64,000 nucleotides of DNA from Acidimicrobiales bacterium (GTDB lineage Bacteria > Actinomycetota > Acidimicrobiia > Acidimicrobiales > Palsa-688). The notes under the pieces are model-generated. The model made no database searches and was not told where the DNA came from. It was given only the letters and a program-made list of their open reading frames with translations. Where the stretch lies: the NCBI GenBank assembly GCA_036378675.1, contig DASUWA010000027.1:1-64000 (forward strand). The letters run 5' to 3'. The position numbers and the translations under genes were made by a program. This document shows positions 8,017 through 36,630 of this stretch, one piece after another (position 1 is the stretch's first letter; every line of letters starts with the position of its first letter).

Positions 8017-9723
8017 TTGCTGGGCCAATGTCCGCATGGTCTGACTCTTCACACTGTCGAAACCAAGCCGTTACAGAACGTGAGGAACGTTTGGTGGGTG
8101 GGTGCGCTTCCGAGTTTCTCCGAGGTCGAGGGCACCGCCACCGACGACCGGCTGAGATGGTTCCAAACGGAGGTGCAAGGTCGACGAGCGGTCGGTGCAG
8201 TAGGAGGACGCCAGGGTCCACCTGTGCTGTTCCTTCACGGGTGGGCGCTCGGCAGCTACACCTACAAGCGGGCGCTCTCCCGCTTAGTGTCGCGTGGATG
8301 CCGGGTGTACGCCCCGGCGTTACCGTCTTTCGGCGGGACTGCCGGACTGCCCAGTTCTGAAACGACCCTCGATGGATACGCAGGTTGGGTGGCGGAATTC
8401 ATGTGCACGGTCGGAGTCGATGAGCCGGCGATGGTGATCGGTCATTCGTTCGGCGGCGGGGTTGGCATCAAGCTCGCCGCTCAGCACCCAGACCTGGTGT
8501 CATATCTGGTTCTGCTCAACGCGGTCGGCGGCGTGTCGCCCAGACCTCCCTGGGACTGGGTGTCGGGGTTCGCTCGTGAACTGTGGCCTCTCACGTCGAC
8601 AGTGGAGTTGATCGGTGCCGTACGGTCCGACCTCGTTCCTACTCTCACTGGCAACCCTTGCGGCGTCCTTCGAACGGCACTCCTGGCCCAACAAGCCGAC
8701 CTTCGCGAGGAGGCACGGGAGTTGCGCGCCGAGGGGCTTCCAGTTCTGGTGCTCACCAGCCAGGGCGACGCGGTCGTTCCCCGGGCCGCATTTGAAACGT
8801 TGTGCAACGCTATCGGAACCCAGGGGCGGGTGGTCAAGGGCGGGCACACTTGGATGCTCGCCGATCCCGACTCCTTCGCGGCATCCATCGCGCCGGTCTT
8901 GGACGGACTGATCGCTAGCGACCGGAGATCGCGGGCCGCTTCTACGGCGAGCGATCTATCGGTGCTTCTCGCGACCATGCAGATGCCTCGACGACTGGCT
9001 TCGGACCTGGTCCGGAAGGCACCCCCCTTGTGGCTGCTGAGCGATTCCCCGTCGGTCCTGGCGGCCGACTTGGCATTGTGCCATCCGAAACTCCGCCCGC
9101 ATGAAGTCCGGGCGGTCGCCCGTCCCATCGTCGATTCCGACGCCGTGAGGCTGGCCATTCTCACCACCGACAGAAAAGGACTATTGGCCGACAGCGCCGG
9201 AGTCCTCGCTGCCAGCGGTCTCTCCATTCTTCACGCCTCAGCCGCAACCTGGACCAGAAGGAACTTGGCTCTCCACTCGTTCATCATCGATGGAGGCCAA
9301 TCGCTCACAGACGAAAGATGGAACGAACTGGGGCGCCGGCTCCAAGTCATGGCCGCCACCGTTCCACTCCCCGGCGCCAGAACTTCCGCTCCAGAACACG
9401 TCACGTCCCACGGCGGTGGTGGCGACCGACTTCTCGTGACCATAACCGTGCGCGACGAACCCGGAGCGCTATCAAACCTGTGCCGGAAGTTCTCCGATCA
9501 CGGAATCAACATCGAGTCTCTCCACGCCCGGTCCGCTGGCGGCCGGGCAATCGACACCTTCTTGGTGTCGGGGATCAAGGACTCCGCCCAGGTTTCGAAC
9601 ATCTTCGAGGCCGAATCCTGGTCAGCGCCCCGCTCGCCAATCGTTGACCGCCGGGTGAACCAACGGAACTGGGATCCGAACCGTCGCCCGTCGTCCGCGC
9701 GCTTAAAGGTCGTGGTCAGCTAG
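8017..9723 (+). CDS. Alpha/beta-hydrolase fused to two C-terminal ACT domains
   Basis: Up to 568 residues. The N-terminal 300 are an alpha/beta-hydrolase: oxyanion LFLHGWALG, nucleophile elbow GHSFGGG, acid in SQGDAVVP and histidine in GGHTW. Residues about 385-435 (VRLAILTTDRKGLLADSAGVLAASGLSI) and about 475-530 (RLLVTITVRDEPGALSNLCRKFSDHGI) are two ACT domains. Their arrangement recalls the end of GlnD uridylyltransferase, including a preceding helical stretch. I know of no standard family with this architecture. The frame opens with TTG at 8017; GTG at 8098, with GAGGA 11 nt upstream, is a credible alternative start. Its 3' end overlaps the convergent ureD stop by a few bases. Confidence 0.75.
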   Translation: MLGQCPHGLTLHTVETKPLQNVRNVWWVGALPSFSEVEGTATDDRLRWFQTEVQGRRAVGAVGGRQGPPVLFLHGWALGSYTYKRALSRLVSRGCRVYAPALPSFGGTAGLPSSETTLDGYAGWVAEFMCTVGVDEPAMVIGHSFGGGVGIKLAAQHPDLVSYLVLLNAVGGVSPRPPWDWVSGFARELWPLTSTVELIGAVRSDLVPTLTGNPCGVLRTALLAQQADLREEARELRAEGLPVLVLTSQGDAVVPRAAFETLCNAIGTQGRVVKGGHTWMLADPDSFAASIAPVLDGLIASDRRSRAASTASDLSVLLATMQMPRRLASDLVRKAPPLWLLSDSPSVLAADLALCHPKLRPHEVRAVARPIVDSDAVRLAILTTDRKGLLADSAGVLAASGLSILHASAATWTRRNLALHSFIIDGGQSLTDERWNELGRRLQVMAATVPLPGARTSAPEHVTSHGGGGDRLLVTITVRDEPGALSNLCRKFSDHGINIESLHARSAGGRAIDTFLVSGIKDSAQVSNIFEAESWSAPRSPIVDRRVNQRNWDPNRRPSSARLKVVVS

Positions 9724-10465
9724 TAGCACGAACCCGGCAGGCGAGTGACTCGACGGCCTCGCGGCAATCCGATAGCTCCTGGCCCCAAGCAACCACCTGC
9801 ACTCCCTGCGCGGCCAGCGGCAGCGCTAGCGCCCTGGTCGTACCGCGGGATTCCTGAGTCGCCGCGCCGAACTTGCGTAGCGGATCGATGACTACGAGGG
9901 TCGAGATCGCCCGCGCGCCGTCAAGTACCGCACTGCTCCGCCAACCTGGCGCACGAGGACCAGCGGCGGTGTCCGATGACAGGAGCACCGATCCGGCGCC
10001 CGCGATCCGCAGCCTGCTCCGCCAGGTACCGGGCTCCTCACCGTGGCGTCCGATCACGAATTCGTCACGCCACGCAAGGCGGGCACCATCACCCATTCGG
10101 ATGCGGGTATCAGCCACGTGGTCCGAGCCCGCAGCCGCCACGCCAGGCTCCGGGTTCCACATCAGAGTTGCCTCGCGGCCGATTCGAACGTTGATGACCA
10201 TGGCCGAACGCTCGCAACCGGGACCAGGGCCCTTTCTGGCGAGGGTGGCGGACGTGGAACGCACTTCGGCATTGCATCCCGCCGCGACCGTCAAGCGGAC
10301 CGAGAGCCGATCCCCGCCGATCGGGTGCGCACCTGCTCCCACCATCCATACCCCCCACTCTGTCGGGCGGAAGTAGAGCGCCCCCGAGCACCGCAGTTGC
10401 TCGACGATCGGGATCCCCCCATCCCCGCGCCCGAGGCGCAGACTTGCTGCGGAGCATTGGCTCAC
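9716..10465 (-). CDS. ureD: Urease accessory protein UreD
   Basis: About 249 residues with the UreD pattern: an N-terminal [23 protein letters not shown] strand region, then [19 protein letters not shown] and [16 protein letters not shown], close to the family's WxPEPxI..gc.h motif. UreD scaffolds assembly of the UreD-F-G complex that delivers nickel to apo-urease. I chose the GTG at 10463-10465 because it overlaps the ureG stop as GTGA, a coupled junction. An upstream ATG at 10549 would intrude 85 nt into ureG. It is the last gene of the long minus-strand operon and runs tail-to-tail into the hydrolase-ACT gene. Confidence 0.85.
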
Positions 10466-11100
10466 ACCCGGGAGGCTTCGGCCAGGCATTTCTCGACCCA
10501 GTCGTGTACGCGCTCCACTCCTTCGCCTGTGCGCAACGAGATCATGCACACCGGGAGGTCCTTGCGTATGGCCTTGGCGTCGGTCTCCATCACCGAGAGG
10601 TTCGCTCCGACGAGGTCGGCCAGGTCGACCTTGTTGATGACGAGGAGGTCGGACCGGGTGACCCCCGGGCCGCCTTTCCTCGGCACCTTGTCTCCCCCTG
10701 CCACATCGACAACGAACACCTGCTTGTCCACCAGACCCCGTGAAAAGGTTGCGGTGAGGTTGTCACCGCCGCTTTCTACGACGACCATCTGAAGTGTCGG
10801 GAACGCGCGTCTTAGGCAGTCGATGGCATCCAGGTTGGCAGCGATGTCGTCGCGGATCGCGGTGTGAGGGCAGCACCCGGTCTCCACCGCCACGATCCGG
10901 TCGGGCTCCAAGACAGCGGCGCGCTTGAGGAAGTCAGCGTCCTCGGTCGTGTAGATGTCGTTCGTAACCACTCCTAGCTGAACCCGGCTCGAAAATGCTT
11001 TGCAAAGGTTCGCGACGAGGGCGGTCTTACCGCTTCCGACGGGTCCCCCTACGCCTAAGCGGAGAGGGCCCGGCTCAGTCGGTGTGGCGTCACGATGCAA
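10462..11100 (-). CDS. ureG: Urease accessory GTPase UreG
   Basis: 212 residues, the usual length. The P-loop GPVGSGKT is at about 19-26, the nickel-related [15 protein letters not shown] segment follows, and the conserved CPH metal motif lies in [13 protein letters not shown]. The C-terminal part carries NKVDLA, the guanine-specificity motif. UreG hydrolyses GTP to power nickel insertion into urease. It overlaps ureF by 11 nt upstream and ureD by 4 nt downstream, consistent with stoichiometric coupled synthesis of the accessory complex. Confidence 0.95.
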
Positions 11101-11782
11101 ATAGTCGTTCCTTTCTCCCGAAGTGCTCCTCGGCCAGCAGGTCGAGAATCGGCGACGACGGCGAGGGGATCTTCCGCAGCGGTCGCCTGGCGTCTCGCGC
11201 CGCGACTGCCGCCACCGCGTCGACGTCTTCGGCGATCCCCGCGAGGACCTTCCCTGTGCCGGCGGGATCCAGACCGAGCAGCCTCAGGGCAGCTGAAGCG
11301 GGACCGGCTACGGAGGCGTAAGCCGCCGACATCGCCGCTTCGCCAGGAGACAACCCCGCCACGGCGGCGACCACGCCCATCACGACCGCCTGATGGGGGT
11401 CGCTCCCGGTTAGAGCAGCAGCGGCAGCGAGGGACGCCAACGGATCGGCCTCGAAGACACGGTCGGCGGTCCGCAGCAACTGACCCCCCTGTTTTCGCGA
11501 TGCGTACCGCGCTGCCGGGGAGGGCATCCTGGCATCGGATTCCATGTCAGCCACACGCCACAGACGGTCGAGATCGGCGCCATCCTGCACGCCGGCGCAG
11601 ATGCGCGCCGCGATGCAAGCTCCGATGAGGCCCGCTGTAGCGAGCCGTCCTCTCAGGAACCCTTCGAGTTGGGGAAGGTCGTCGATCACACCGTCTTCGC
11701 ATGCCTGCTCCACTCCCCCGGAGTGGGCGTGACCCCCTGCGGGGAAACGGGAATCCGACACCAGCAGCAGCAGCGATCTCAC
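11090..11782 (-). CDS. ureF: Urease accessory protein UreF
   Basis: About 230 residues. The N-terminal [24 protein letters not shown] is the conserved UreF opening (SDSxFPxGxxxHSxGLE), and the C-terminal helices have the family's Ala-rich character. UreF works with UreD and UreG in urease activation. I start at GTG 11780-11782, 7 nt after the ureC stop. The longer frame from 11857 overlaps ureC and encodes an unrelated Arg-rich leader. Confidence 0.9.
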
Positions 11783-11789
11783 GGTCTGC

Positions 11790-13499
11790 CTAGAACAGGA
11801 AGTATCTCTGGGCCATCGGCAGCACAGCCGCGGGTGCCGGTTCGACCATCTCGTCATCGATCGTCACGGCGAACGAGTCGGGTTCGATTTGGATCCGGGG
11901 GAGGTAGTCATTGTTCGGCATGTCCGCCTTGCCGAGCCCGCGGACATCGTCGACCGCCACGACCGCTTTTTTGAGCTCCACCCTTTCGTTGATCCCCTCT
12001 TCGAGGGCGACCGGCGCCACGAAGGCGATGCTGGACCCGGCCGCGGTGTTCGGCGACGCCCCGAACATGGGGCGTGGAAGGACTGGCTGGGGGGTGGGGA
12101 TCGAAGCATTGGCATCGCCCATCGCGGCCCAGGCGATCATCCCTCCCTTCAGCACTAGGTGGGGCCGGACCCCGAAGAAGGCGGGTTCCCACAGGACCAG
12201 GTCGGCGAGCTTGCCCGGCTCCACCGAGCCGATCTGGGAACCCAGGCCGTGCGCGATGGCCGGGGCGATGGTGTACTTCGCAACGTAACGGCGCGCGCGG
12301 TGGTTGTCCGCGACGCTGTCGCCGGAGAGCGTTCCGCGGCGTCCTTTCATCACGTGCGCGGTCTGCCAGGTTCGCGTTATCACCTCGCCGACCCTTCCCA
12401 TCGCCTGCGAATCGGAGCCGATCATCGAAATCGCGCCGAGATCGTGAAGGATGTCCTCGGCTGCCATCGTCGAGCCCCGGATGCGACTTTCGGCAAAGGC
12501 CAGGTCCTCGGGAAGCCTCGGGTTCAGGTGGTGGCACACCATGAGCATGTCCAGGTGCTCGTCGAGGGTGTTGACGGTGTATGGCATCGTCGGGTTGGTG
12601 GACGACGGAAGCACGTTGGGGTGCGACGCCACAACCATGATGTCGGGAGCGTGCCCTCCTCCCGCGCCCTCGGAGTGGTAGGTGTGAATCGAACGCCCAG
12701 CGATCGCAGCGAGCGTGTCCTCCACGAATCCGGCCTCGTTGAGTGTGTCGGTGTGGAGTGCCACCTGGACGCCGGCCTCGTCGGCGACGCCGAGGCAGCA
12801 CTCGATTGCGGCGGGGCTAGATCCCCAGTCCTCGTGGAGCTTGAAGCCGGACACCCCCCCGCACAGCTGTTCCCACAAAGCGTCCGGCGAAACAGTGTTG
12901 CCCTTTCCCAGCAGAGCCACGTTGACCGGATACGGATCGAGGGCTTGCAGCATCCGGGCCGTGTACCACGATCCTGGCGTCACTGTGGTCGCCTTGGTCC
13001 CCTCGGCAGGGCCGCTGCCCCCGCCGATGAGCGTCGTGATCCCCGACCCGATTGCTTCGTCGATGATCTGGGGGCAGATGAAATGCACGTGGCAGTCGAT
13101 GCCGCCGGCGGTGAGGATCAGTCCATTACCGCCGATGACCTCAGTGGACGGCCCGACGACCAAGGCGGGATGGACTCCGGACGTGATGTCAGGGTTGCCG
13201 GCCTTGCCGAGGGCGGTGATTCGCCCGTCTCGCACTCCGACATCAGCCTTGACGATCCCCCAGTGGTCGAGGACCACGGCTCCTGTGATCACCAGGTCGG
13301 GCGTGCCCGAGGCCCGCGTCGCTGCGGATTGTGCCATCGACTCGCGAATCGTCTTGCCGCCGCCGAAGATGGCCTCATCACCGGGTCCGCAGCGGTCCTC
13401 GGTCACCTCCACGAGAACGTCGGTGTCGGCGAGGCGAATCATGTCCCCGGTCGTGGGACCGTATAGGGCCGCGTAACGGTCGCGTCCAATCGAGGTCAA
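11790..13499 (-). CDS. ureC: Urease alpha subunit
   Basis: 569 residues, full length. All active-site features are present: HVH at 137-139, the carbamylated lysine Lys220 in GFKLHEDWG with His222, nickel ligands His249 and His275, and the flap Cys322-His323. This subunit hydrolyses urea to ammonia and carbamate using two Ni(II) ions in the cytoplasm. It overlaps ureB by 4 nt. In this operon its substrate would come from the guanidine-hydrolase-like enzyme encoded upstream at 14957-16093. Confidence 0.98.
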
Positions 13500-13822
13500 C
13501 GGCTCGGGTCCTGCCTCGGTTCGAGGGGGCCGGCACTGAGGCCACGCAGTCCCAGGACGATCCGTTGCCCTTCAAGCGGGACGAGCCCAACCTGGCGGCT
13601 GATCCCCGGCTCGAAGCGGACGGAGGTCCCGGCAGGAATGGCCAGACGCATCCCCCACGCTGCATCGCGATCGAATGCAAGCGCCTTGTTGGCCTCGGCG
13701 AAGTGAAAGTGGGATCCGACCTGGATGGGACGGTCGCCGTGATTGGACACCGATATCGAGACGGCAGCGGGGGCTGTCACGACGATGTCCCCCGGGGCAA
13801 CGATGATCTCGCCGGGCCTCAC
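13496..13822 (-). CDS. ureB: Urease beta subunit
   Basis: 108 residues with the typical opening [13 protein letters not shown] and the conserved [22 protein letters not shown] core, then [15 protein letters not shown]. It is a structural subunit of the (alpha-beta-gamma)3 urease. It overlaps ureA and ureC by 4 nt each, so the three subunits are translationally coupled. Confidence 0.97.
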
Positions 13823-14121
13823 GGGATCGGGTCGTGGATGGTGACGAGTTTGGTGCCGTCCGGGAAGGTCGCCTCGCCCTGGACCTCCCGGAGCATCTCC
13901 GGTACGCCATCCATCACGTCGGCTCGGGAGAGGACATGCCTGCCTGAGCTGGCCAGCTCGGCGACCGTTCGGCCATCTCTCGCCCCCTCGATGATGTGGA
14001 CGGTCAGCAGAGCGACCGCTTCTGGGTAGTTGAGTTTGACGCCTCTTTGCTGCCTGTCCCGGGCGACCATGGCAGCAACGTGAACTAACAGGCGATCCTG
14101 CTCGTGAGGCGACAGCTTCAC
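13819..14121 (-). CDS. ureA: Urease gamma subunit
   Basis: 100 residues, exactly the family size, opening [39 protein letters not shown] and containing [24 protein letters not shown]. It is the first of the ureABC structural genes and overlaps the preceding metallo-hydrolase gene by 4 nt. That ties urease into the same transcript as the ureohydrolase. Confidence 0.97.
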
Positions 14122-14960
14122 ATCTCAGCCCCTCGCCAGACGCCTTTGGACTGACGGAGCTCTTCGGTAAGCGCCGGCCACACCACAGGGTCGTGGCCCG
14201 GCACGAGCATCAGCCCCTCACGGCTCGACAACTCCTTCAACCGGCGGATGTTCGCAACTGTAGCTGCAGGTTCACAATCGATGACCCCGCCGATGGGCAG
14301 CTCGTGAGTGATGTTTTCGGTCAGGTCGGCCGCATCTGCCGCGAATACGAAGCCTCCCCCACCGACCGAGCCGTCGTAGCGAACCACGAAGCTCTGATGG
14401 CCCGGCGTGTGTCCGGGGGTGAGCACCGTCGACACCCCTGGCGCGACCTCGGCATCGCCGTCCGCGAGGTTCCAGATGACTTTTGGGTCGTCGTAGTCGA
14501 CGCGGCAGTAGCCGTTGCGCTCAGCCTCGATCGAGCGCTCGAGCCCGAACTCGAGCTCCGCCCTCTGCAGGTGAACGGGGGTCCTCCCCGAGAAATGACG
14601 TATGCCGCCTGCGTGGTCGTTGTGCAGGTGGCTCACCGCCACTGCGTCGATCGCGTCGATCGGTACCCCCTCCCGCTCCAAGGCATCGAGGAGAGGGTCG
14701 CCGCCCGGCGGGAGGATCGGCTCGATCCCGAAGAACGAGTCGTGGTAGCGGCGTCTGAGAGGAACGTCGTTGATGAGCGCCGGGTTGAATCCCGTCTCGA
14801 GGAGAACCCACCCTCCGTCCACTTCGACCAACACCGCGGGTACGGGCTCTATGAGCCTCTCCTCGCGGGGAGTTCCGTGCACTGACCAGGCCTTGGGCAG
14901 ATCCTCCCAGCCCATGGTCAGCAGCACGACCCGCTTGACCCCGGCGCCGGTGGAAGTCAC
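14118..14960 (-). CDS. Metallo-beta-lactamase-fold hydrolase
   Basis: 280 residues with the metal-binding signature HLHNDHAGG, a downstream [11 protein letters not shown] histidine and FAADAADL for the bridging aspartate. The overall pattern fits the N-acyl-homoserine-lactonase-like branch of the MBL superfamily, but the substrate cannot be assigned. It sits between the ureohydrolase and ureA with 4-nt overlaps on both sides. A role in the same catabolic route, such as hydrolysing an intermediate ester, lactone or amide, is more likely than quorum quenching. Confidence 0.85.
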
Positions 14961-16093
14961 GACGACACGACCTTTTTCGGCAGGTGACCGTGCAGTACGA
15001 GAGTCGCAAGAGTGTCGCAGACAATTCTCGTGGCGACCAAGGAGGTGATATCAGCCGAGTCGTACGGGGGTGCGCACTCCACCACCTCGATTCCCGCCAA
15101 GCCTCCTCTCGCCACCCCTTGAACCAGTTCCAGGGCCTCGCGCGGAAGGAATCCTCCCGGTTCCGGCCACCCGGTCCCGGGTACAAACGCGGCGTCGAGG
15201 CAGTCGACGTCGAACGACAGCCACACCGCGTCGGCGTCCTCCCAGGCCACCTCCAGAGCAACCTCCACCGCTGCCTGCATGCCCATCTCGACGCAGTCGT
15301 TGACGGTCAGCACCGTCGTTCCCCGCTCACGCCCGACCTTGACACCTGGTCGCGGCGCCTGCCAGCCGCCGATCCCAATCTGGACGAGATTCTTTGCCGG
15401 AACGTTCGGTATGTCCGTGGCGTGGAACCACGGTGTCGTGTGCATCCGCTCGTCGAGGTCGGTCTCTTGGGTGTCGACATGGCGGTCGAAGTGAATGATG
15501 CCGAGGTTGCCTTCAAGGTGCTCGGCAACTGCTCTCACAGTGGGGTAACCAATCGAATGGTCTCCGCCGAGCACCACCGGGAAAGCTCCCGACGCGTAGA
15601 CGTGGGAGACCGCCTTGCTGATCTGGTCGAAGCTTTTCTCGAGGTTGCCCGGGATGGTGAAAACGTCGCCGACATCTCCGATGGTTATCGACTCCCGAAG
15701 ATCGACGCCTAGCTCGAAGCTGTAGGTCCCGTACAAAGCGGAAATCCGTCGGATACCTTGCGGCCCGAACCGGGTCCCCGGACGGTAGGTCGTACCGGAG
15801 TCGAAAGGCGCGCCCAGCACGACCACGTCGTGCTCACCGCACCGGTGCACGTCTTCGACATAGGGCGCCTTCAAGAACGTGTTGATCCCGGCGAAATGAG
15901 GGAGCTCTCCTCTCGAGAACGTCGGGATAGTGCGATCGACGATCGAGTCGGCCCCGGGCAGCCCGAGAGCCAAACCCCTTTCTATCTCCCGCTCCCATGC
16001 GGTGATCGGAAGGATCGCTTCGTTTTCGACCGCCCGTTTGGCCTCTGGACCGTACATGGGCGTGTGCCTGTAGGGCTGTTCGATGTCGCTCAT
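14957..16093 (-). CDS. gdmH: Ureohydrolase, probable guanidine hydrolase (GdmH-like)
   Basis: 378 residues of the arginase/agmatinase superfamily. Metal ligands are His179 (GGDHS), Asp203/His205/Asp207 (DRHVD) and Asp295/Asp297 (SFDVD). Three traits separate it from ordinary agmatinases: an N-terminal extension of about 80 residues, DRHVDTQE instead of the usual DAHxD context, and GTGWPEPGG with Trp309 where agmatinases usually have Thr. A bulky Trp would shrink the pocket, fitting guanidine hydrolases, which convert guanidine to urea and ammonia. Lying directly upstream of urease in a guanidine-riboswitch operon supports this. Guanidinase assignment is inference; ureohydrolase is certain. 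No nickel chaperone gene of the HypAB type accompanies it here. Confidence 0.85.
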   Translation of the reverse strand: MSDIEQPYRHTPMYGPEAKRAVENEAILPITAWEREIERGLALGLPGADSIVDRTIPTFSRGELPHFAGINTFLKAPYVEDVHRCGEHDVVVLGAPFDSGTTYRPGTRFGPQGIRRISALYGTYSFELGVDLRESITIGDVGDVFTIPGNLEKSFDQISKAVSHVYASGAFPVVLGGDHSIGYPTVRAVAEHLEGNLGIIHFDRHVDTQETDLDERMHTTPWFHATDIPNVPAKNLVQIGIGGWQAPRPGVKVGRERGTTVLTVNDCVEMGMQAAVEVALEVAWEDADAVWLSFDVDCLDAAFVPGTGWPEPGGFLPREALELVQGVARGGLAGIEVVECAPPYDSADITSLVATRIVCDTLATLVLHGHLPKKVVSS

Positions 16094-16137
16094 TGCGCGT
16101 GATGCTCCCTCTCTTGGTGAACAAGTACTTCACTGAG

Positions 16138-18218: not shown

Positions 18219-19093
18219 CGGTCTCCCAGCAGGTCTCTGATCCCGTCACCGGCAAGGTTGGCGAGCAGAGCAACCAGGAACACGCCCAGTGCCGGGATCA
18301 CCGGAACCCACCATTCCTGGAGCAGGTATTGAAGACCTCGGGCCGCCATGGCTCCCAGTTCGGGTGCGGGAGCGGGGGCGCCCAGACCGAGAAACGACAA
18401 CGACGCTAAGGTCACGATGAGGTTCCCGACGTCGAGGCTCGCGGTCACCAGAAGGGCTGGCACCGCGCCGGGAAGAAGATGCCGCCACGCTCGCCGGAAC
18501 GACCCGACCCCAGAGAGCCGGGCGGCCTCGAGGTGGGGTCGGACAGCGAGCGACCGAACCTCAGCGCGCACAATACGGGCGTAGAAGGGCCACCACACGA
18601 TTCCCACACCGATCAGCGTGTGGAGGAAGCTGGGCCCGAGAGAGGCGACCACTGCGATGGCAAGGACCGGGCCGGGGAGGGCAAGAAAGATGTCGGTGAT
18701 CCTCATCAGGAGGTCGTCGATCAAACCTCCAGCGGCGCCCGCAACCAGACCGATCGTCCCGCCGATGATTACTCCGGACAGGATCACCCCGCCGGCGGCT
18801 TCGAGGCTCGATCGAAGTCCGAAAAGCACCCGGGAGAGGATGTCCTGTCCGACTTCGTCTGTTCCGAAGACGAAGCCACCGTGACCAGGCGAAAGAAACG
18901 GCGTCCCGGCCGGCTGGATGGGATTGTGAGGTGCCAGCAACGGAGCGGCGATCGCCACCAGGATCACCGCGAGGAAGGCCGAGATCGCAATCCGGTCCCC
19001 TACCGCCGCACGCCGACCGACCGCGCGGAAGTCGCGGACCCGCCCCAGTCTCCGGGTGACGGGCGGCCTGAGGTACGGTTCGCTTACCGCCAT
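18215..19093 (-). CDS. ABC transporter permease, DppC/OppC type
   Basis: About 292 residues: an N-terminal cytoplasmic stretch, helix 1, the DppC motif APHNPIQPAG and FGTDEVGQDILSRVLFGLRSSL, then the permease core. I start at the ATG 19091-19093, which overlaps the ATPase stop as TGATG. The frame extending to 19210 lies inside the ATPase gene. It is the partner of the DppB-type permease. Confidence 0.92.
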   Translation of the reverse strand: MAVSEPYLRPPVTRRLGRVRDFRAVGRRAAVGDRIAISAFLAVILVAIAAPLLAPHNPIQPAGTPFLSPGHGGFVFGTDEVGQDILSRVLFGLRSSLEAAGGVILSGVIIGGTIGLVAGAAGGLIDDLLMRITDIFLALPGPVLAIAVVASLGPSFLHTLIGVGIVWWPFYARIVRAEVRSLAVRPHLEAARLSGVGSFRRAWRHLLPGAVPALLVTASLDVGNLIVTLASLSFLGLGAPAPAPELGAMAARGLQYLLQEWWVPVIPALGVFLVALLANLAGDGIRDLLGDR

Positions 19094-21147
19094 CAGGGCA
19101 CCTGACCGATCGCCAGGCCGTCTGATGGAGCGACACGAGAGCAGGCGACACAGCGCTGGCTGGTTTGCCCTCGACCGACGGACACCAGGACCTGTTTGCG
19201 TGTCTCGCACTCGGCGACCCGGTCAGGGCACCGGCTGTGGAACGAGCATCCCTCCGGCGGGTCAAGCGGGTTCGCAGGCTCCCCGGATATCGGTGTGGCC
19301 GACTTGCCCAGGTCGGGCACGGCCGCCAGCAGTGCCTTCGTGTACGGGTGAGACGGATTGGCGCACACCTCGTCTGATTCGCCCGACTCGACGATCTGCC
19401 CGAGGTACATGACCGCTATGCGGTCCGCGACGATTCTCGCCGCGGCCAAGTCGTGAGTGACGAACAGTACGGCCATGCCGAGTTCGCGGCGGAGCCGACC
19501 GATCAGGTTGAGGACGGTTGCAGCCAAAGAGACGTCCAAGGCGCTCGTGGGCTCGTCGCACAGCAGGATGCCCGGCGGGACCACCGTGGCGCGGGCCAGA
19601 GCCGCACGCTGGCATTGGCCACCGGAGAGCTGGGCCGGTTTCGCGGACGCAACTTCTGCGGGAAGCCCCACCAGGGCAAGCGCCTGGCGGACCCGGTCTG
19701 ACTTCTGGCCGCGGCTCAGGTCTTCGAGACGCAACCTCTCCCCGATCATTTCGCCGACCGTGAGCCACGGGGTGAGCGATGCACCGGCGTCCTGGAACAC
19801 CATCTGCGCGGTCGTGCCGCGGGAGAACTCGACGTCTCCCCCATCCGGTTTGTAAAGCCCCGCGACGGTTCGCAAGAGCGTCGACTTGCCGCACCCGCTC
19901 TCGCCGACCAGAGCGACGGCTTCCCCGCGGTCTATCTCAAGGGATACGCCGCGAAGGGCGTGCAAGCGCAGTTTGGACCAGCCCGAACGTATTCCGAAAT
20001 GCTTGTGAACACCGTGGATGAGGACCGCAGGATCTCGTCCCCCTTCGCGCCGTGGGGGGCTCTCCCATGGAGCCGCCTGTGCGAACGCCTCGACCGCGGT
20101 GTTGTGCTGGACGGGGTTGAAGCAGGCGACGAGGTCGTTTCCTTGAGAGGCCGGGTCCGGGAGCCGCAACTGCGGGAGATCCGACGCGCACTGCTCCGTC
20201 CGTAGTTCGCAGCGCGGCTCGAACGGGCAGCCGGTCGGGTGGGCGCGGGGATCGGGGGGTTCACCGGGAAGGGTCCTGACCGGCCGGTCTCTGTCGGAGT
20301 CGAGAACGAGCCGGGACTTCAACAGGCCACGCGTGTAGGGATGGCGGCTGGACGAGAACATCGACGTCGCAGCACCGACTTCGGCTAGGCGGCCGCCGTA
20401 GAGCACGGCGATTCGGTCGCTGATCTGCGCTGCGACCCCCAGATCATGGGTGATCAGGATGAAGCTGGTTCCATAGCGATCGCGAAGGTCGCGCAGCAGC
20501 TCGAGGATTTGCGCCTGTACGGTCACATCGAGGGCGGTGGTGGGCTCGTCCGCGATAACTAGCGACGGCGACCCGGCGATCGCCATGGCGATCATCACCC
20601 TCTGTCTCAGACCCCCGGAAAGCTCGTGGGGGTACGCCTGCATCCGCCGCTTGGCGTTTGGAATCCCCACCGATTCAAGTAGCTCGAGTACCGAGCCCTG
20701 GTCGTTGGCTGCTTCGGCGACCTGCCTACCGACGCGCATGGTTGGGTTGAGGGAGGTCATCGGATCCTGGAACACCGCACCCAGGTATCGGCGCCGGACC
20801 CCCCGTCGATCCTCGGCGGTTGCGCTTCCCATGTCTGTCCCGCGCACCACTACCGACCCCTTGACAGCAGGTGCGGGGCTGGTCGGGAGCAGGCCGAGCA
20901 GTGTGAGTCCGAGCACCGACTTGCCGGACCCGGACTCACCCACGAGCCCGAGAATCTCGCCGGGTTCCACCTGGAGGCTCACACCTCGCAGCGCATGTAC
21001 GACGGCGTCGCCTCGGGTGAACGAAACGTGGAGGTCCTCGACGCTGACCAACGGGGCGCCATATGGCGCCGCGTCCGGATTGCCCATCGGTAGGTCCCCT
21101 GCGAGGACCGGCGGGCGCGATCGCGGCCGGCGGAGGACCGTCGTCAT
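19093..21147 (-). CDS. Fused double ABC ATPase, DppD-DppF type
   Basis: 684 residues carrying two complete ATPase domains. The first (about 30-290) has GESGSGKS, a signature LSGGLRQRV and Walker B LVIADEPTTALD. The second (about 370-640) has GESGCGKS, LSGGQCQRA and LLCDEPTSALD. Each domain ends in the Cys-containing oligopeptide/dipeptide C-terminal extension (CPFEPRCELRTEQC; CSFHSRCPDRVAECE). A single polypeptide replaces the usual two ATPase genes. It energises the importer formed with the two permeases and the binding protein, with ATGA overlap to the binding-protein gene. Confidence 0.93.
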   Translation of the reverse strand: MTTVLRRPRSRPPVLAGDLPMGNPDAAPYGAPLVSVEDLHVSFTRGDAVVHALRGVSLQVEPGEILGLVGESGSGKSVLGLTLLGLLPTSPAPAVKGSVVVRGTDMGSATAEDRRGVRRRYLGAVFQDPMTSLNPTMRVGRQVAEAANDQGSVLELLESVGIPNAKRRMQAYPHELSGGLRQRVMIAMAIAGSPSLVIADEPTTALDVTVQAQILELLRDLRDRYGTSFILITHDLGVAAQISDRIAVLYGGRLAEVGAATSMFSSSRHPYTRGLLKSRLVLDSDRDRPVRTLPGEPPDPRAHPTGCPFEPRCELRTEQCASDLPQLRLPDPASQGNDLVACFNPVQHNTAVEAFAQAAPWESPPRREGGRDPAVLIHGVHKHFGIRSGWSKLRLHALRGVSLEIDRGEAVALVGESGCGKSTLLRTVAGLYKPDGGDVEFSRGTTAQMVFQDAGASLTPWLTVGEMIGERLRLEDLSRGQKSDRVRQALALVGLPAEVASAKPAQLSGGQCQRAALARATVVPPGILLCDEPTSALDVSLAATVLNLIGRLRRELGMAVLFVTHDLAAARIVADRIAVMYLGQIVESGESDEVCANPSHPYTKALLAAVPDLGKSATPISGEPANPLDPPEGCSFHSRCPDRVAECETRKQVLVSVGRGQTSQRCVACSRVAPSDGLAIGQVP

Positions 21148-22781
21148 CCCTTACCTGTGTAGGTAAGGTCACCGAGAACGACCGTGTCGGCCGTCGGGAG
21201 CTGGAAGTACCAGCCGCCGACACCGGCGTGCGACACGACGACGTCACGTACATCGGCGATGCTGATCCATTCACCCGACTCGGCCACGAGGGCGCCGGCT
21301 TGGGCGTAATCGGATTGGATCGTGGTCGGGTCGGTGGAGTGGAGTCCCGCGTCCATCAGAGCGTCGGCTTGAGGAACCGACCCGTGGAGCTCGTTCAGCG
21401 AACCGTTGGTGTTCGAGAAGATGCGTATCCAGCTGTCTGGGTGCGAGTCGTCCGGGTTGACCGTCCACACGAGGAGGTTGGGGAGTTGATCAGGCGGGGT
21501 GCTGGCGTAGTTGAAGACCTGGCTGATCGGTACGCCATGCACCTGCACGCTGAGGCCGTCCGCGTCGAGTTCGGTCTGGATGAACTCGGCCACCCGCTGA
21601 TTGGTCGGATCGTCCGTGGAGTAAGACAGGTTGATGCTCGTGGGCCCGTTAGCTCCCTTCAGCGCGTTCTTCAACGCGGTCGGGTCGTAGGTCGGATTGT
21701 CCCGAGCCGTGCCTGGGGGGAACTCGTCGACGGGGTACGCCTGGGTGGACACGGTAGCCAGGGTGTTTCCGTACACGCTCGCAACGATGGCCGCCTTGTC
21801 GATGGCTTGACGCAGCGCCGATCGGACCGTTTGGCTCTTGAAGATCCCGAGAGTGGGGTTCACGTAGAGCATTGCCTTCAACTGGGCCGGGAACTCGTGA
21901 ACCTGGAAGTCGGCACCGGACTTGAAGCTCTGCACCGCGTTGACCGGGAGTCCGTGCAGGATCATGGATAGCTTGCCGTTCTGGAGCTCCGCCTGCTGGA
22001 CACTGATATCAGGAACGATGTCGATGTTGACAGTCGTGTAGTACGGCTTGGTGCCCCAGTAGTTGTTGTAGGCGGAAAGCACGTAGTGGCTACCGGGAAC
22101 GAATTGAGTGATCGAGTAAGGGCCGGTCCCGGCGTCATGGGTCTTCAGGTACTCCTGGGCCCAGTCGCCATTGGGGTTGCTGCTCGTGACGCCGACCTCG
22201 TGGGCCTTAACCGTGGTCGGGCTCGCCATCTTCGGTCCGTACGGCGAGGCCAGGTAATCCATGAACGCGGAGACCGGCTGGTTCAGGTGAACGATGAACG
22301 TCTGGGGATCAGGTGTCTCGGTTGATACGACATTGGCAAGCATGTAGGCCGGCGCAGAGTTGACTCCGGTCCGGCGCGCGAAGCTGAACGCTGCCGCTTG
22401 TGAGTTGACCGATGTCCCGTCGTGGAAGGTGACCCCGGGTACGAGATGGAAGGTGTACGTCTTGCCATCCGGAGCCACTTCCCAGCTTTGGGCGAGTGCC
22501 GGAATGATCTTGGTTGACCCGTCGGCGTATTTCACCAATCCTTCGTAGACCGACGTGACCACGGCATTGCCCTCGATCTCGTAGAAGATGTCCGGATCGG
22601 GGACTTGCATGTCGGCTCCGAAGGCCAGGTCGAGAGTGTGGGAGGACGAAACTCCAAGCGACCCCGACGAGGGCGCCGATCCGCTTGGTGAGCTGTTGCC
22701 GCAAGCGGCAGCGACAAGGCCGAGGACCAGTCCCCCGGTGATCAGTGCTCGCCAATGGATTGAGGTGACGGCGTGATTCAC
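21144..22781 (-). CDS. Extracellular solute-binding lipoprotein, family 5 (peptide/nickel/opine type)
   Basis: 545 residues with a lipoprotein signal: hydrophobic helix then LVAAAC, so Cys27 would be lipidated. The mature part has family-5 features (YEGLVKYADGSTKIIPALAQSWEVAPDGKTYTFHL..GVTFHDGTS). It delivers substrate to the permease pair encoded next. It is a paralogue of the binding protein at 26829-28448, with the same segment order. The ligand class of family 5 is broad; location in a guanidine-responsive operon suggests a guanidino compound or peptide-like amide. Confidence 0.92.
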   Translation of the reverse strand: MNHAVTSIHWRALITGGLVLGLVAAACGNSSPSGSAPSSGSLGVSSSHTLDLAFGADMQVPDPDIFYEIEGNAVVTSVYEGLVKYADGSTKIIPALAQSWEVAPDGKTYTFHLVPGVTFHDGTSVNSQAAAFSFARRTGVNSAPAYMLANVVSTETPDPQTFIVHLNQPVSAFMDYLASPYGPKMASPTTVKAHEVGVTSSNPNGDWAQEYLKTHDAGTGPYSITQFVPGSHYVLSAYNNYWGTKPYYTTVNIDIVPDISVQQAELQNGKLSMILHGLPVNAVQSFKSGADFQVHEFPAQLKAMLYVNPTLGIFKSQTVRSALRQAIDKAAIVASVYGNTLATVSTQAYPVDEFPPGTARDNPTYDPTALKNALKGANGPTSINLSYSTDDPTNQRVAEFIQTELDADGLSVQVHGVPISQVFNYASTPPDQLPNLLVWTVNPDDSHPDSWIRIFSNTNGSLNELHGSVPQADALMDAGLHSTDPTTIQSDYAQAGALVAESGEWISIADVRDVVVSHAGVGGWYFQLPTADTVVLGDLTYTGKG

Positions 22782-22815
22782 TTATGCACTCCTCATACGG
22801 TGGTTCGGGCTGTGG

Positions 22816-23592
22816 TCAATGGAGGATCGATCCGCCGTTGGTGCAGATGGCCTGGCCGGTCACGAAGCCGGCTGACGGACCGGCTAGCCACACGACCAGC
22901 GCCGCCACGTCTTCTGGGGTGCAGAGTCGGCCGGCTGGTACTGCCTCTGTGAGCCTTTGTCGCACGGCTTCTTGCGACCTGCCGCTCAGCGCAGCCTCCG
23001 CCAGCTCCTCTGCGATAACCATGTCGGTCTCGACGGTGCCGGGACACACCGCGTTGACCGATATGCCACAAGGCGCAAGTTCGACGGCGGCGGCCTGGGT
23101 CAGGCCCACCACGGCAAACTTGCTAGCGCTGTACCCGGCGAGCATCGGCGCCGCCAACAAACCGAGGTCGGATGCGACGTTGATGATTCGCCCTCCTCTG
23201 CCGGCCTCCTTCATGGCCGCGCCGGCTGCCACCAGTCCGTGGAAGGTCCCGAAGAAGTTGACTTCCATCATGGCCGTCACGTCGGCGACGGTCGTCTCGA
23301 GTAGAGGGGCCAGCCGAGATACGCCAGCGTTGTTGACCCAGACATCGAGCCCTCCGAGCTCGGACACCGCGACCTTGGCCATCTGGGCCGCGGTGGTCGG
23401 GTCGCTCACGTCGCCGTGGACGCCGATCGCGTGGCCACCCACGGAGCCGACGCGTTCGATCGTCTCTTCGACGGCAGGCTCGTTGGACCGCCACCCGAGG
23501 ACCAGGTCACAGCCCGACCTCGCCAGCTCGAGCGCGATTCCTCTGCCGAGTCCTCGGCCCCCACCGGTGATGACAGCGGTCCGCCGGCTCAT
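22816..23592 (-). CDS. Short-chain dehydrogenase/reductase (FabG-like)
   Basis: 258 residues: TGGGRGLG cofactor motif, DVS acidic residue, NNAG, catalytic Ser in NVASDLG, and YSASK. The ATG at 23590-23592 overlaps the previous stop as ATGA, which fixes the start. The longer frame to 23661 lies within the upstream gene. It is an NAD(P)-dependent oxidoreductase of unknown substrate, perhaps processing a carbonyl released when the imported compound is dealkylated. A FabG-like enzyme of general type cannot be excluded. Confidence 0.88.
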   Translation of the reverse strand: MSRRTAVITGGGRGLGRGIALELARSGCDLVLGWRSNEPAVEETIERVGSVGGHAIGVHGDVSDPTTAAQMAKVAVSELGGLDVWVNNAGVSRLAPLLETTVADVTAMMEVNFFGTFHGLVAAGAAMKEAGRGGRIINVASDLGLLAAPMLAGYSASKFAVVGLTQAAAVELAPCGISVNAVCPGTVETDMVIAEELAEAALSGRSQEAVRQRLTEAVPAGRLCTPEDVAALVVWLAGPSAGFVTGQAICTNGGSILH

Positions 23593-24272
23593 CGGCTGAC
23601 CAGCCATCGGAACGGCGCGAGGTGTCGGCTGTCGGACTCGATGAGCCTCTCCGGGTGCCATTGAATGCCCAGTGCCCCAGGGGCTTCTACGGCTTCAATC
23701 AGCCCGTCGGGGCTCCACGCGACCGCTTTGAGAACCGGCCCGGGGTCGGAGACCGCCTGGTGGTGAATGGAATTGACTCGGTTTGCGCCGGCGACCGCGA
23801 GACCGGCAACCGATCCGGCTTCGGCGACGATGCCGTGGACTGGTTCGCCCTCTCGTTCCTCCTCGTCGTGATCCACAAATCCCGCCGATGGGAGGTCCGG
23901 AATCAGAGTGCCTCCGAGCGCCGCTGCAAGCAGCTGGATACCCCTGCAGATTCCCAGGACTGGTCTTCCTGCATCCATGGCCGTAGCCACGGCGGCCACT
24001 TCGAGGGCGTCTCGGTCCGGATCGGTGTCTTTCTCTCCCCCGCCTCGCTGCGCCCCATAGACAGCGGGATCGACGTCGTTCCCTCCGCTCAGCAGCAGGG
24101 CGTCACACGTCAACACCAGCCCGAGCGTGCGGTCCGTGTCGATGCCGGGACCCACCGGGACGATCACCGGCTGGGCGCCAACGGCCGTTATGGCGTCGAC
24201 GTAACCCCGGTGCACGGAGTACCTCCGCTCCGGGCTCCTCCCGATCATAAGCGCAACGAGCCTGCTTCTCAT
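23589..24272 (-). CDS. Class I glutamine amidotransferase-like gamma-glutamyl hydrolase (C26/PuuD-like)
   Basis: 227 residues with the peptidase C26 layout: LLLSGGNDVDPAVYG, the nucleophile Cys109 in LGICRGIQLLAAALGG, and the catalytic His in LGIQWHPE. PuuD-like members cleave gamma-glutamyl bonds, for example gamma-glutamyl-GABA. The ATG at 24270-24272 overlaps the creatininase stop as ATGA. In the same operon is a glutamine-synthetase-like ligase, so the two could form a gamma-glutamylation/deglutamylation pair like PuuA/PuuD. The other Puu enzymes are absent. Confidence 0.87.
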   Translation of the reverse strand: MRSRLVALMIGRSPERRYSVHRGYVDAITAVGAQPVIVPVGPGIDTDRTLGLVLTCDALLLSGGNDVDPAVYGAQRGGGEKDTDPDRDALEVAAVATAMDAGRPVLGICRGIQLLAAALGGTLIPDLPSAGFVDHDEEEREGEPVHGIVAEAGSVAGLAVAGANRVNSIHHQAVSDPGPVLKAVAWSPDGLIEAVEAPGALGIQWHPERLIESDSRHLAPFRWLVSR

Positions 24273-25117
24273 CGCTTGCTGATCACCGATCGAGGTGTGA
24301 GATTGTCGTGCGATCCGGGCGGCGATGTAGGAAGGACGTCGGGGGTGTGGTCGATGAGGGGCGGCTCCTCGATACGCCCCCGTTCCACCAATGAGGAGAT
24401 CGCGGCGACAGTCCTCGCAAAGAGGCGTTCTCCGAGTTCGGTTGACGCTTCCGACGGGCGCCCGGTCACTCCGTTGGTCGACAAGGAGGTGGCTGTGTAG
24501 CGGAACACGAGGTCGCCCGTTCTGTCCGGGTCGTCGCTCGCAACGAGGCGGTCGGTGTTGACCAGGTTCGGCGCGACAGCGAGCATGAGTGATGTCTCGG
24601 TACGGTTGGCGTGGATGTCCTCGCCGTCGATCGCGGTCTCCGCAGCAACTTCCGGGTCGGCGGACCACCAACCGATGACTCCGACCCGCAGGTCCGGCCG
24701 TTCGAGCCGCAAGTGGTCACTCGCAACCATGAGGGACGCCTGGTTGCCGAAGTGCGCGTTCACGAGGAGGAAGCGGCGCAGGCCCGAGAAGCTCGCCCAC
24801 TCAAGGGTCTGGCGGACGACGGAGGCGAGGCCCTCGGGAGTCAGCGAGATGGTGCTCGGCAACTGCTTCCCGTGACCGTAGCTGCATCCGAGCGAAATCG
24901 CAGGCAACACCATCGCCTTGGTTTCGGCCGAGACGGCTTCACAGATCGCGGTGGCCAGGATGGTGTCGGTTCCTGAAGGGAGATGAGGGCCGTGCTGCTC
25001 GGTTGCGCCTACGGGCAGCAGGCCGACGTCGTGAGGTCTGGCTTCGAACACGGCGCCGATCTCCGGCCATGCCAGGTCCGTCCAGCGAAGCGGTCCGGTG
25101 CGTTGCTCGCTCGTCAT
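24269..25117 (-). CDS. Creatininase-family amidohydrolase
   Basis: 282 residues with the family's metal motif LLPVGATEQHGPHLPSGTDT (Glu40, His42, Asp51) and a later NAHFGNQ in place of the common NGHGGN, then IHANRTETSLML with the metal-ligand Glu. Family members include creatinine amidohydrolase (cyclic amide to the guanidino acid creatine) and related formamide or lactam hydrolases. The guanidine context makes a guanidino substrate attractive. The Phe substitution in the NxHxGN motif is a reason not to call it creatininase outright. It follows the ligase gene by 4 nt. Confidence 0.87.
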   Translation of the reverse strand: MTSEQRTGPLRWTDLAWPEIGAVFEARPHDVGLLPVGATEQHGPHLPSGTDTILATAICEAVSAETKAMVLPAISLGCSYGHGKQLPSTISLTPEGLASVVRQTLEWASFSGLRRFLLVNAHFGNQASLMVASDHLRLERPDLRVGVIGWWSADPEVAAETAIDGEDIHANRTETSLMLAVAPNLVNTDRLVASDDPDRTGDLVFRYTATSLSTNGVTGRPSEASTELGERLFARTVAAISSLVERGRIEEPPLIDHTPDVLPTSPPGSHDNLTPRSVISKR

Positions 25118-25121
25118 CGAC

Positions 25122-26513
25122 TCAGAACATGGTGAGATAGGTCGTCCGCTCCCAATCCGTCACCTGAGAGTGGTAGAGGGTCCATTCGTCGACCTTCATC
25201 TCGACGTAGGCCGACACGAACTGAGGCGGGAAGACGGTTCGGGTGAGGGGGTCCGCGTCGAAGGCTTCGATGGCCTCGAGGAGGTTCCTCGGGAGGCGCA
25301 CCGCCTTTAGGTCGGAGGAGCTCGGGCCGGCCTTGGTCCAGTCGTAGGTCAGGTCCTCCACCGGGTCACCGGGGTCGAGGTTCTCGGCCACCCCTTCGAG
25401 GCCGGCCGCGAGCAGGAAGGCCGCGGCGAGATAGGCGTTCGCAGCGGAGTCCACGCCACGGTTCTCGACGCATGGCCGATTGCGAGGGAGGCGCATCATG
25501 CAGGAGCGGTTGTTGTCCCCGTACGCAGCCCACACCGGAGCCCACGACACGGTCCCGTCGGACAGCCTCGGTTGCAGCCTCTTGTAAGAATTGACGGTGG
25601 GAGTGCAGATGGCCGCGAGCGCGGGGGCGTGGCGAAGTATCCCCGCCACGAACCCGTAAGCGGTCTTACTCCATCCCCGACCTTTTGCATCATCTGCGTC
25701 TCGGAACAGGTTCTCGCCGGTCTCGACGTCCGCGAGACTCATGTTGAAATGGGCCCCGGAACCCCAGGCCTCGGTGTAGGGCTTCGGCATGAACGTCGCC
25801 GTCAGACCTGCGCTCTTGGCGATCTGTTTCGCCATCAGACGGAACAGAGTCAGTCGGTCGGCCATTTGAAGGGCAGGGGCGTAGTCGAAGTCGAACTCGT
25901 ACTGGCCGTCCCCTCCCTCGTGGTCGAAGCTGAACACCCCGAACCCGGTCTCGTCCATGGCTTTGACCATGGGGTCGAGGAAGCTCATCGCATCGAGGGT
26001 GCTCTCGACGTCGTAGGCCGGCGTGGGACGGAGCATCCCGGTTGGTGCGGTTGGTTCGAGGTAGGTCCACCCTGACCGGGCAGGTTCCTTGACCACGTAA
26101 AGCTCGGTTTCGACCCCGAGGTTCAAGGTGTAGCCCGCGGCAGCGGCCGCTTCGACCTGACGTTTGAGAATGGACCGGGTGCAGTGAGCGAACCGTTCCG
26201 AGCCACCGTAGTAAAGGTCTGCCGCCATGAACGCGAACCGTTTGTCCCACGGGAGGATCTGGAGGGTGCTGGGGTCGGGAACCGCCACGCACTCGTCCTC
26301 GTCAGGTGTCATCTGGCCGAGGTTGCCCATGCCCCTCGGGGTGTACCTCTCGTGCCCAGCGATCAGCTGCGGCAAGTGAGCAACCGGTACGCATTTGGAC
26401 TTGGCTCGTCCGGTGACGTCGATGAAGGAAGCGAACACATACTCGACTCCACTTTGCGCTAACGACACGGCGAGGTCCTCGTGCTCCTGTGTCGTCGCTT
26501 TGATCGTGTCCAT
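25122..26513 (-). CDS. Glutamine-synthetase-like gamma-glutamyl ligase (type III/GlnT-like)
   Basis: 463 residues of the glutamine synthetase fold. Visible are the beta-grasp N-terminus with YVFASFIDVTGRAKSK, metal-site GVETELYVV and FDHEGGDGQYEFDFDY, the GSGAHFNMSL nucleotide/metal loop, NSYKRLQP, and the arginine region NNRSCMMRLP..ENRGVDSAANAYLAA. The pattern fits the GlnT / gamma-glutamylmethylamide-synthetase-like branch rather than housekeeping GlnA, so the acceptor may be an amine instead of ammonia. It is the first gene after the riboswitch, with GGGAGG 6 nt before the ATG. It likely captures ammonia or an amine released from the guanidine compound. Confidence 0.88.
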   Translation of the reverse strand: MDTIKATTQEHEDLAVSLAQSGVEYVFASFIDVTGRAKSKCVPVAHLPQLIAGHERYTPRGMGNLGQMTPDEDECVAVPDPSTLQILPWDKRFAFMAADLYYGGSERFAHCTRSILKRQVEAAAAAGYTLNLGVETELYVVKEPARSGWTYLEPTAPTGMLRPTPAYDVESTLDAMSFLDPMVKAMDETGFGVFSFDHEGGDGQYEFDFDYAPALQMADRLTLFRLMAKQIAKSAGLTATFMPKPYTEAWGSGAHFNMSLADVETGENLFRDADDAKGRGWSKTAYGFVAGILRHAPALAAICTPTVNSYKRLQPRLSDGTVSWAPVWAAYGDNNRSCMMRLPRNRPCVENRGVDSAANAYLAAAFLLAAGLEGVAENLDPGDPVEDLTYDWTKAGPSSSDLKAVRLPRNLLEAIEAFDADPLTRTVFPPQFVSAYVEMKVDEWTLYHSQVTDWERTTYLTMF

Positions 26514-26578
26514 CCGAAACCTCCCTGAAGCTCTTCGTCCTGATCGGTCGGGACGACATCAAAGGCTTCCGGAAAGGC

Positions 26579-26611
26579 AAAGCCCGGGAAGCGAATGGCC
26601 TCCCGGGCTTT
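26579..26611 (-). terminator. Riboswitch expression-platform terminator
   Basis: On the minus strand a perfect 11-bp stem AAAGCCCGGGA / TCCCGGGCTTT (arms 26601-26611 and 26579-26589, 11-nt loop) is followed by a pyrimidine-rich stretch GCCTTTCC. Its 5' arm is the conserved 3' strand of the ykkC aptamer. Ligand binding and terminator formation would therefore compete, giving ligand-induced readthrough into the ligase gene 65 nt downstream. Confidence 0.75.
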
Positions 26612-26715
26612 TCTCCCTCCGTGTCACACCACTGCTTCCGCTCCGGTGTGTGCCCCTCTCGGACCAGACCTTCCGATTGGCCTGTGAGCCGGATCGGAAC
26701 TGCGGAACCCTAGGC
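26592..26715 (-). ncRNA. Guanidine-I (ykkC) riboswitch
   Basis: Read on the minus strand from 26715, this leader contains the hallmark conserved blocks of ykkC RNA in order. These are CTAGGGTTCCGC (26702-26713), GGTCCGAGAG (26656-26665) and ACACGGAGGG followed by AAAAGCCCGGGAGG (26599-26612). Two hairpins are visible between the blocks: TTCCGAT/ATCGGAA (26671-26699) and CACACC/GGTGTG (26625-26650). Subtype 1 of ykkC binds guanidine. Subtypes 2a-2d share the scaffold but bind ppGpp, PRPP or (d)ADP. The guanidine-hydrolase-like gene, urease and importer downstream favour subtype 1. It lies 79-200 nt upstream of the ligase start and would control the whole operon down to ureD. Confidence 0.88.
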
Positions 26716-26828
26716 GCAGCTGAACTTTGTTGACTGTGGCGTACTGTAGAAGTCGGTCGTTTCGCACTTGTGACGCAAGAATGAACGCTGAGTTTCAGGC
26801 TCTTCGTTGGTTGCTGCGTATTGGTTTC

Positions 26829-31278: not shown

Positions 31279-31301
31279 ACGGCGGGTGGACAGGAAAACC
31301 T

Positions 31302-31337
31302 GACTAATCCTATTCTATTAAGCGGGTAGGTAGTTTT
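31302..31337 (+). promoter_or_regulatory. AT-rich element 2, in front of pstS
   Basis: GACTAATCCTATTCTATTAAG followed by GGGTAGGTAG, very like the element in front of the upstream Rrf2 gene. It is 54 nt before the pstS start. Shared occurrence suggests control by the Rrf2 protein. Confidence 0.5.
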
Positions 31338-31390
31338 GAGTCCCAATTGGTCGCTGCGACAGGGCTGCTGTCGCGTTAGAGAGGAGTCGC

Positions 31391-32776: not shown

Positions 32777-32800
32777 GCCCACCGCGAAAGCCATCCCGAA

Positions 32801-33793: not shown

Positions 33794-33807
33794 AAGCCGC
33801 GCGGTAG

Positions 33808-35600: not shown

Positions 35601-35605
35601 GGCCC

Positions 35606-36619: not shown

Positions 36620-36630
36620 TCCCGATACTC

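Follow-up and report, generated by a model that had tools for sequence, protein, structure and literature searches.

Two operons are among the closest described relatives of the locus reported here. The guanidine-I operon of Synechocystis has been described as carrying the guanidinase GdmH (Sll1077), the HypA/HypB pair and an ATP-binding cassette (ABC) importer of the SsuA/NrtD type (PMC12186494; PMC8390497). The guanidinase locus of comammox Nitrospira also has a guanidine-I switch, with an APC permease and the guanidinase, and the legend of Fig. 1 in the same source places the urease outside switch control in four genomes (PMC11410670). In the aniline dioxygenase (AtdA1-A5) and NpaA1-A5 systems, a glutamine synthetase (GS)-like ligase, a glutamine-amidotransferase-like enzyme and a Rieske oxygenase have been reported together (PMC11335346). 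Release of guanidine from a larger compound, as proposed below, has been reported for ethylene-forming enzyme, NapI, plant homoarginine-6-hydroxylases and guanylurea hydrolase; in these sources none is presented as a Rieske enzyme or placed in a guanidinase operon (PMC12186494; PMC11018352). The locus described here lies in a stretch of 64,000 nucleotides (the window; positions 1 to 64,000 of contig DASUWA010000027.1, assembly GCA_036378675.1) from an Acidimicrobiales bacterium and consists of a guanidine-I riboswitch followed by 17 genes. It shares the switch, GdmH and an ABC importer with the Synechocystis operon; unlike that operon it has no nickel chaperone pair, its importer is of another type, a urease lies inside it, and ligase and Rieske genes are added. 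The closest solved GdmH is that of comammox Nitrospira (9fek). Compared with AtdA1-A5 and NpaA1-A5, the second oxygenase component and the reductase are absent from the operon, and creatininase-like, short-chain dehydrogenase/reductase (SDR) and importer genes as well as a guanidine-I switch are added. Guanidinase operons are known, and what appears to be new is that the urease stands behind the switch and that a candidate module for the oxidative release of guanidine is placed ahead of the guanidinase. The full gene set was not found in the literature searched (main texts), in agreement with the initial annotation of the window, which knew of no such operon; an earlier description is possible.

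The 17 coding sequences occupy 26513 to 9716 of the minus strand, all behind the switch, in the order GS-like ligase, creatininase-like protein, C26 hydrolase, SDR, solute-binding protein, OppD-OppF fusion, OppC, OppB, Rieske alpha subunit, GdmH, metallo-beta-lactamase-fold (MBL) protein, UreA, UreB, UreC, UreF, UreG and UreD. The initial annotation had counted sixteen genes, one too few, and had correctly given about 44 nt as the largest gap: the intergenic gaps are 4, 34, 44 and 7 nt, those of 34 and 44 nt preceding the solute-binding protein and GdmH, and all other neighbours overlap by 1 to 11 nt. We read the locus as a guanidine-inducible catabolic operon combining import, glutamylation and Rieske-type release of guanidine, GdmH and urease, and give this reading an even chance of being correct. 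The sequence argues for the riboswitch class, the identity of GdmH, the urease genes, and the gene order and its recurrence; for the upper half we infer the substrate, the glutamylation and the Rieske reaction, together with co-transcription.

A covariance search of the whole window with cmscan bore out the earlier assignment of the leader to guanidine-I (ykkC subtype 1). The family RF00442 matched over its full length at 26724-26598 on the minus strand and scored 69.1 bits (gathering score 63, E 3.4e-10), the single match of this family in the whole genome. A permissive scan of 26480-26830 gave no further riboswitch family up to E 10. The ykkC subtype 2 was rejected because only guanidine-I was listed up to E 10, Rfam coverage of every subtype not having been checked. 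Directly behind the aptamer (26598-26724), a 14-bp terminator-like hairpin is possible at 26611-26579 on the same strand, which would consume the 3' strand of the aptamer and probably serves as the expression platform. The computed fold of the 54-nt hairpin piece has -31.8 kcal/mol (z -3.5), and the hairpin is followed by UUUGCCUUU, a weak U tract. This layout is as expected for an ON switch acting through termination. Given what is known of this riboswitch class and given the computed fold, the hairpin would form in the absence of guanidine and transcription would stop; with guanidine present, the aptamer would hold its own 3' strand and the genes would be transcribed.

The lower half of the operon, GdmH and urease, is well supported by sequence. 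The GdmH protein (14957-16093, like all operon genes on the minus strand) scored 661 bits with the solved guanidinase of comammox Nitrospira (9fek) and 568 with that of Synechocystis (7esr), the next ureohydrolase reaching 176. Residues T105, H222 and W313 (N. inopinata numbering) have been reported to define guanidinases, and E344 has also been discussed (PMC11410670). Their counterparts here are T102, H218, W309 and E339 according to our own mapping through alignment to the solved guanidinases, and all four are kept at every covered site in 26 related GdmH loci, which come from 25 genomes other than that of the window (GdmH relatives at 38-39% in G152 and G296 were left out). What had been annotated as a GdmH-like ureohydrolase is therefore well supported as a guanidinase, judged by sequence matches and diagnostic residues. 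The urease set ureABCFGD is complete, as annotated earlier: UreA (gamma subunit, 13819-14121, 162.7 bits, cut-off 123), UreB (beta, 13496-13822, 140.5 bits, cut-off 129), UreC (alpha, 11790-13499, 1079.9 bits, cut-off 907) and UreG (10462-11100, TIGR00101, 274.3 bits, cut-off 204) pass curated cut-offs, and UreF (11090-11782, PF01730, 78.1 bits; its GTG start at 11782 is a guess) and UreD (9716-10465, GTG start at 10465, PF01774, 79.5 bits) pass Pfam gathering scores. No ureE is present among the 17 genes. Another urease is encoded on contig C23 of this genome (UreC pair 52% identical), so the operon urease looks like a dedicated copy. The Rfam family 5' ureB sRNA (RF02514) also matched at 13058-13356 on the plus strand, antisense to ureC, with 71.1 bits, and in 10 of the 26 GdmH loci; this match may stem from conservation of the ureC coding sequence instead of an RNA.

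The initial annotation had correctly placed a Rieske oxygenase and an importer of the ABC type under the single switch, and all genes it named were found; it had left out five, the amine-type ligase, the creatininase-like protein, the C26 hydrolase, the SDR and the MBL-fold protein, which suggest an upper pathway of glutamylation and oxidation. The ligase (25122-26513) is closest among solved chains to glutamate-methylamine ligases (9qur 303.7 bits, 7cql 255.2), against 216.8 bits for true glutamine synthetases. Where true glutamine synthetases carry the Glu of their GYEAP loop, this protein has Trp, as methylamine ligases do. This Glu has a role in ammonia handling. The next protein (24269-25117, PF02633, 217.6 bits) belongs to the creatininase family of amidohydrolases. 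A true creatininase was rejected, with 134.4 bits against the TIGR04448 cut-off of 235 and Gly where a metal-site Glu is expected, a residue which we take to be E122, mutated in the creatininase structure 3a6j. It is followed by a C26 (gamma-glutamyl hydrolase-like) protein (23589-24272, PF07722, 171 bits) with the nucleophile motif GICRG, and by the SDR (22816-23592, PF00106, start ATG 23592). The Rieske alpha subunit (16138-17223, PF00355 and PF00848) has intact cluster and 2-His iron-site motifs. Its structural model (pLDDT 84.9) is nearest to the carnitine oxygenase CntA (Z 34.3). The MBL-fold protein (14118-14960, PF00753) carries an HLHNDH motif and is AiiA-like, AiiA-type lactonases being its best matches in the PDB. 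The ligase, C26 hydrolase and Rieske alpha subunit in one cluster form the triad reported for aniline dioxygenase (PMC11335346). The second oxygenase component and reductase of that type are not among the 17 genes, and the operon was for this reason not filed as a member. A plasmid search with the ligase gave its best match at 54.9% in Rhodococcus opacus; the neighbours there, a gamma-glutamyl-GABA-hydrolase-family gene and a gene for a cytosine permease, give no hint of the substrate; with the Rieske protein, the matches listed (25 of 948 records) were at most 32.3%.

The importer consists of a family-5 solute-binding lipoprotein (21144-22781), for which dipeptide-binding proteins score best in the PDB, a fused OppD-OppF type ATPase (19093-21147, PRK11308, 498 bits, cut-off 408 passed), an OppC/DppC-type permease (18215-19093, start ATG 19093) and an OppB/DppB-type permease (17220-18218), the binding protein and both permeases being assigned from NCBIfam matches. 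Nine of the 26 GdmH loci have both Opp permeases and the MBL-fold gene; MBL alone was found in two, Opp alone in none and neither in 15 (partial OppDF matches covering <60% of the query were excluded). G164 has the MBL gene with no adjoining Opp genes, which lie on another contig behind their own switch, and in L039 the Opp genes are located about 9 kb ahead of GdmH. In G199 (L200, 6020-10377) a guanidine-I switch stands directly before OppDF-OppC-OppB and the binding protein, and immediately upstream of this switch lies a Rieske gene. Behind GdmH, five of the loci that lack Opp show an open frame resembling a permease, which Pfam confirmed as an amino-acid permease in two cases, and L044 has a different ABC permease; an NCS1 label was given to permease-like frames by eye, with no match in Pfam. 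Since Opp travels with MBL and some of the loci without Opp have other permease genes, the Opp and MBL genes may serve a compound other than free guanidine.

The gene order was also sought in relatives, as the initial annotation had proposed, and parts of it recur behind guanidine-I switches, pointing to a guanidine regulon. Among 298 genomes of the order, GdmH was matched in 28 (E 1e-60), the guanidine-I switch in 24 and both in 23. Of the 26 GdmH loci, 20 are preceded by the switch on their own strand, and 11 of these 20 have the urease downstream of the switch on that strand, directly behind it in L056. Five of the 11 have 1.6 to 2.7 kb between GdmH and UreA, with the best open frame on the same strand; about 0.7 kb separates MBL and UreA in L052, L053 and L055, with no clear gene. 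The urease is divergent from the switch in L041, L042 and L047. It follows GdmH or MBL directly in L035, L040 and L050, where the stretch retrieved contains no switch. In L040 and L050 this stretch starts at a contig end, and the genome to which L040 belongs, G078, carries a switch on a different contig. UreD was matched in 17 of the 26 loci.

The upper half recurs in the same setting. In G164, of the same family, one switch precedes the ligase, creatininase-like, C26, SDR, solute-binding protein, OppDF, OppC and OppB genes, and a second switch precedes a second ureohydrolase, Rieske, MBL and GdmH. The same layout is spread over several contigs in G679, where the front genes again stand behind a guanidine-I switch of their own. 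In G078, which belongs to a different family, one contig carries a switch followed by the ligase, creatininase-like, C26, SDR and solute-binding protein genes to the contig end, and another starts inside a solute-binding protein gene and continues with Opp, the second ureohydrolase, GdmH, Rieske, MBL and urease; almost all of the operon thus recurs in this genome, on two contigs that are presumably adjacent. The Rieske and creatininase-like genes were found in the identical six of 32 genomes of the family (thresholds E 1e-50 and 1e-40; the creatininase match in G680 is cut by a contig end), with a hypergeometric value of 1.1e-6 that assumes independent genomes and, as these are related, is not a true probability. 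On account of the layouts in G164, G679 and G078 and of this co-occurrence, there is good genomic support for placing the upper half in the guanidine regulon. A second ureohydrolase, below the agmatinase cut-off, was also observed beside GdmH and Rieske in relatives (L040, 4532-5719; behind a switch in L043 and L144), and the genome of the window has an additional ureohydrolase, located at the end of a contig, that shares 53% identity with the second ureohydrolase of G078. In a scan with the Rieske alignment, L058 was the only one of the 80 loci listed in which Opp permeases, MBL, ligase and creatininase-like protein were all matched nearby at 49% or above; no GdmH was matched on its 9.2 kb. 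In the phylum sample the Rieske gene was found only in the genome of the window (1 of 396 at E 1e-60). In the class sample the switch was found in 15 of 335 genomes, eight of them outside the order and one of those eight above the cut-off, with no match to operon genes within about 1.5 kb of these eight.

The route that we propose would begin with uptake of a guanidino compound larger than free guanidine by the Opp-type importer. The amine-type ligase would attach a gamma-glutamyl group to it, and the Rieske oxygenase would hydroxylate a carbon adjacent to nitrogen, giving an unstable product whose breakdown frees guanidine; the SDR, C26, creatininase-like and MBL-fold enzymes would process the remainder. 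This logic of the upper half is modelled on the aniline-dioxygenase system. GdmH would then convert guanidine to urea and ammonia, and the dedicated urease would convert urea to ammonia and CO2. The single regulated route from an external guanidine compound to ammonia that the initial annotation had envisaged would be consistent with this scheme, and its interpretation as a whole is partly supported. A more specific claim, that gamma-glutamylation and a Rieske oxygenase of a class unlike the described enzymes free guanidine and are wired by the riboswitch to guanidinase and urease as a self-inducing nitrogen-mining operon, is tentative and more doubtful than probable.

Several points weigh against the proposed route. 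The switch senses guanidine, the supposed product, so basal expression would be needed. The creatininase-like protein lacks the Glu of true creatininase noted above, and the Rieske model fails to separate C-N cleaving from aromatic oxygenases, terephthalate and naphthalene dioxygenases lying within about 1 Z unit of CntA. No ferredoxin, reductase or Rieske beta subunit is present among the 17 genes; the genome has two FAD_binding_6 reductases, both on contig C23. Across the 298 genomes of the order, Rieske was found in eight and the creatininase-like gene in nine, common to six, so two Rieske genomes and three creatininase genomes are without the partner gene. In G178 and G289 the ligase, creatininase-like and Rieske genes are present, yet the contig retrieved carries no switch and GdmH was not matched at E 1e-60, and the module therefore need not concern guanidine everywhere. 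Clusters of these three genes, with two Rieske genes each and no guanidine-I switch on the fetched stretch, were observed in L198 (G289), L199 (G178) and L203 (G125); they are perhaps the same module for another amine.

The ligase-Rieske module without GdmH in G178 and G289 also favours another kind of operon, in which Opp would supply GdmH and urease with free guanidine for degradation and the ligase, creatininase-like, SDR and Rieske enzymes would be passengers serving a co-occurring nitrogen compound. GdmH-urease loci without ligase and Rieske do exist, and the importer place behind GdmH is taken in relatives by amino-acid-permease-type proteins or another ABC permease. Against this stand the separate guanidine-I switch ahead of the front genes in G164, G679 and G078, and the MBL gene in all nine of the loci with Opp permeases; we regard such an operon as credible yet rather unlikely. 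A division of the stretch by internal promoters, with the switch controlling the first genes only, would fit the 34-nt and 44-nt gaps and the separate loci, one switch each, of the two halves in G164. In 9500-26900 one promoter-like site was found against 1.5 expected, and four terminator-like patterns against a shuffle mean of 8.1, patterns that say little in a genome of this kind; we hold several transcripts to be improbable. That the first gene is a glutamine synthetase assimilating the ammonia from GdmH and urease is suggested by its best NCBIfam model, named type III glutamate-ammonia ligase (TIGR03105); its 441.9 bits stay under the cut-off of 469.6, and with the Trp in the loop and the closeness to methylamine ligases this function was rejected as very improbable. 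Nickel supply for GdmH and urease, both nickel enzymes, deserves the least credence as the role of the importer, since the NikA name (the best NCBIfam name of the binding protein) and the passing of the NikD and NikE cut-offs by the fused ATPase are set against 135.6/393, 196.6/447 and 209.5/358 bits for NikA, NikB and NikC, far under the cut-offs, and against the dipeptide-binding proteins that lead in the PDB, on which grounds a nickel importer was rejected as the main reading.

Additional genes were observed around the operon. Upstream of the switch on the same strand, 26829-29437 (minus) encodes another solute-binding protein of family 5 together with an amidohydrolase (PF04909), a pair possibly related to the operon and lying outside switch control. 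An alpha/beta-hydrolase with an ACT domain (8017-9723, plus) is convergent with ureD, with an overlap of 8 nt at the ureD end. Farther away are a candidate gene, an open frame of 717 amino acids at 4861-7014 (plus) with no Pfam match at 1e-5, and, at 30829-37254, an Rrf2-type regulator, a PBP-like binding protein and two ABC permeases followed by a cysteine dioxygenase-like gene.

The origin of natural guanidine is described as an open question (PMC12186494). Read as a guanidine-inducible catabolic operon, the locus offers a candidate oxygenase module that may free guanidine, and its substrate would give a lead to guanidino compounds in nature from which the guanidine pool is supplied.

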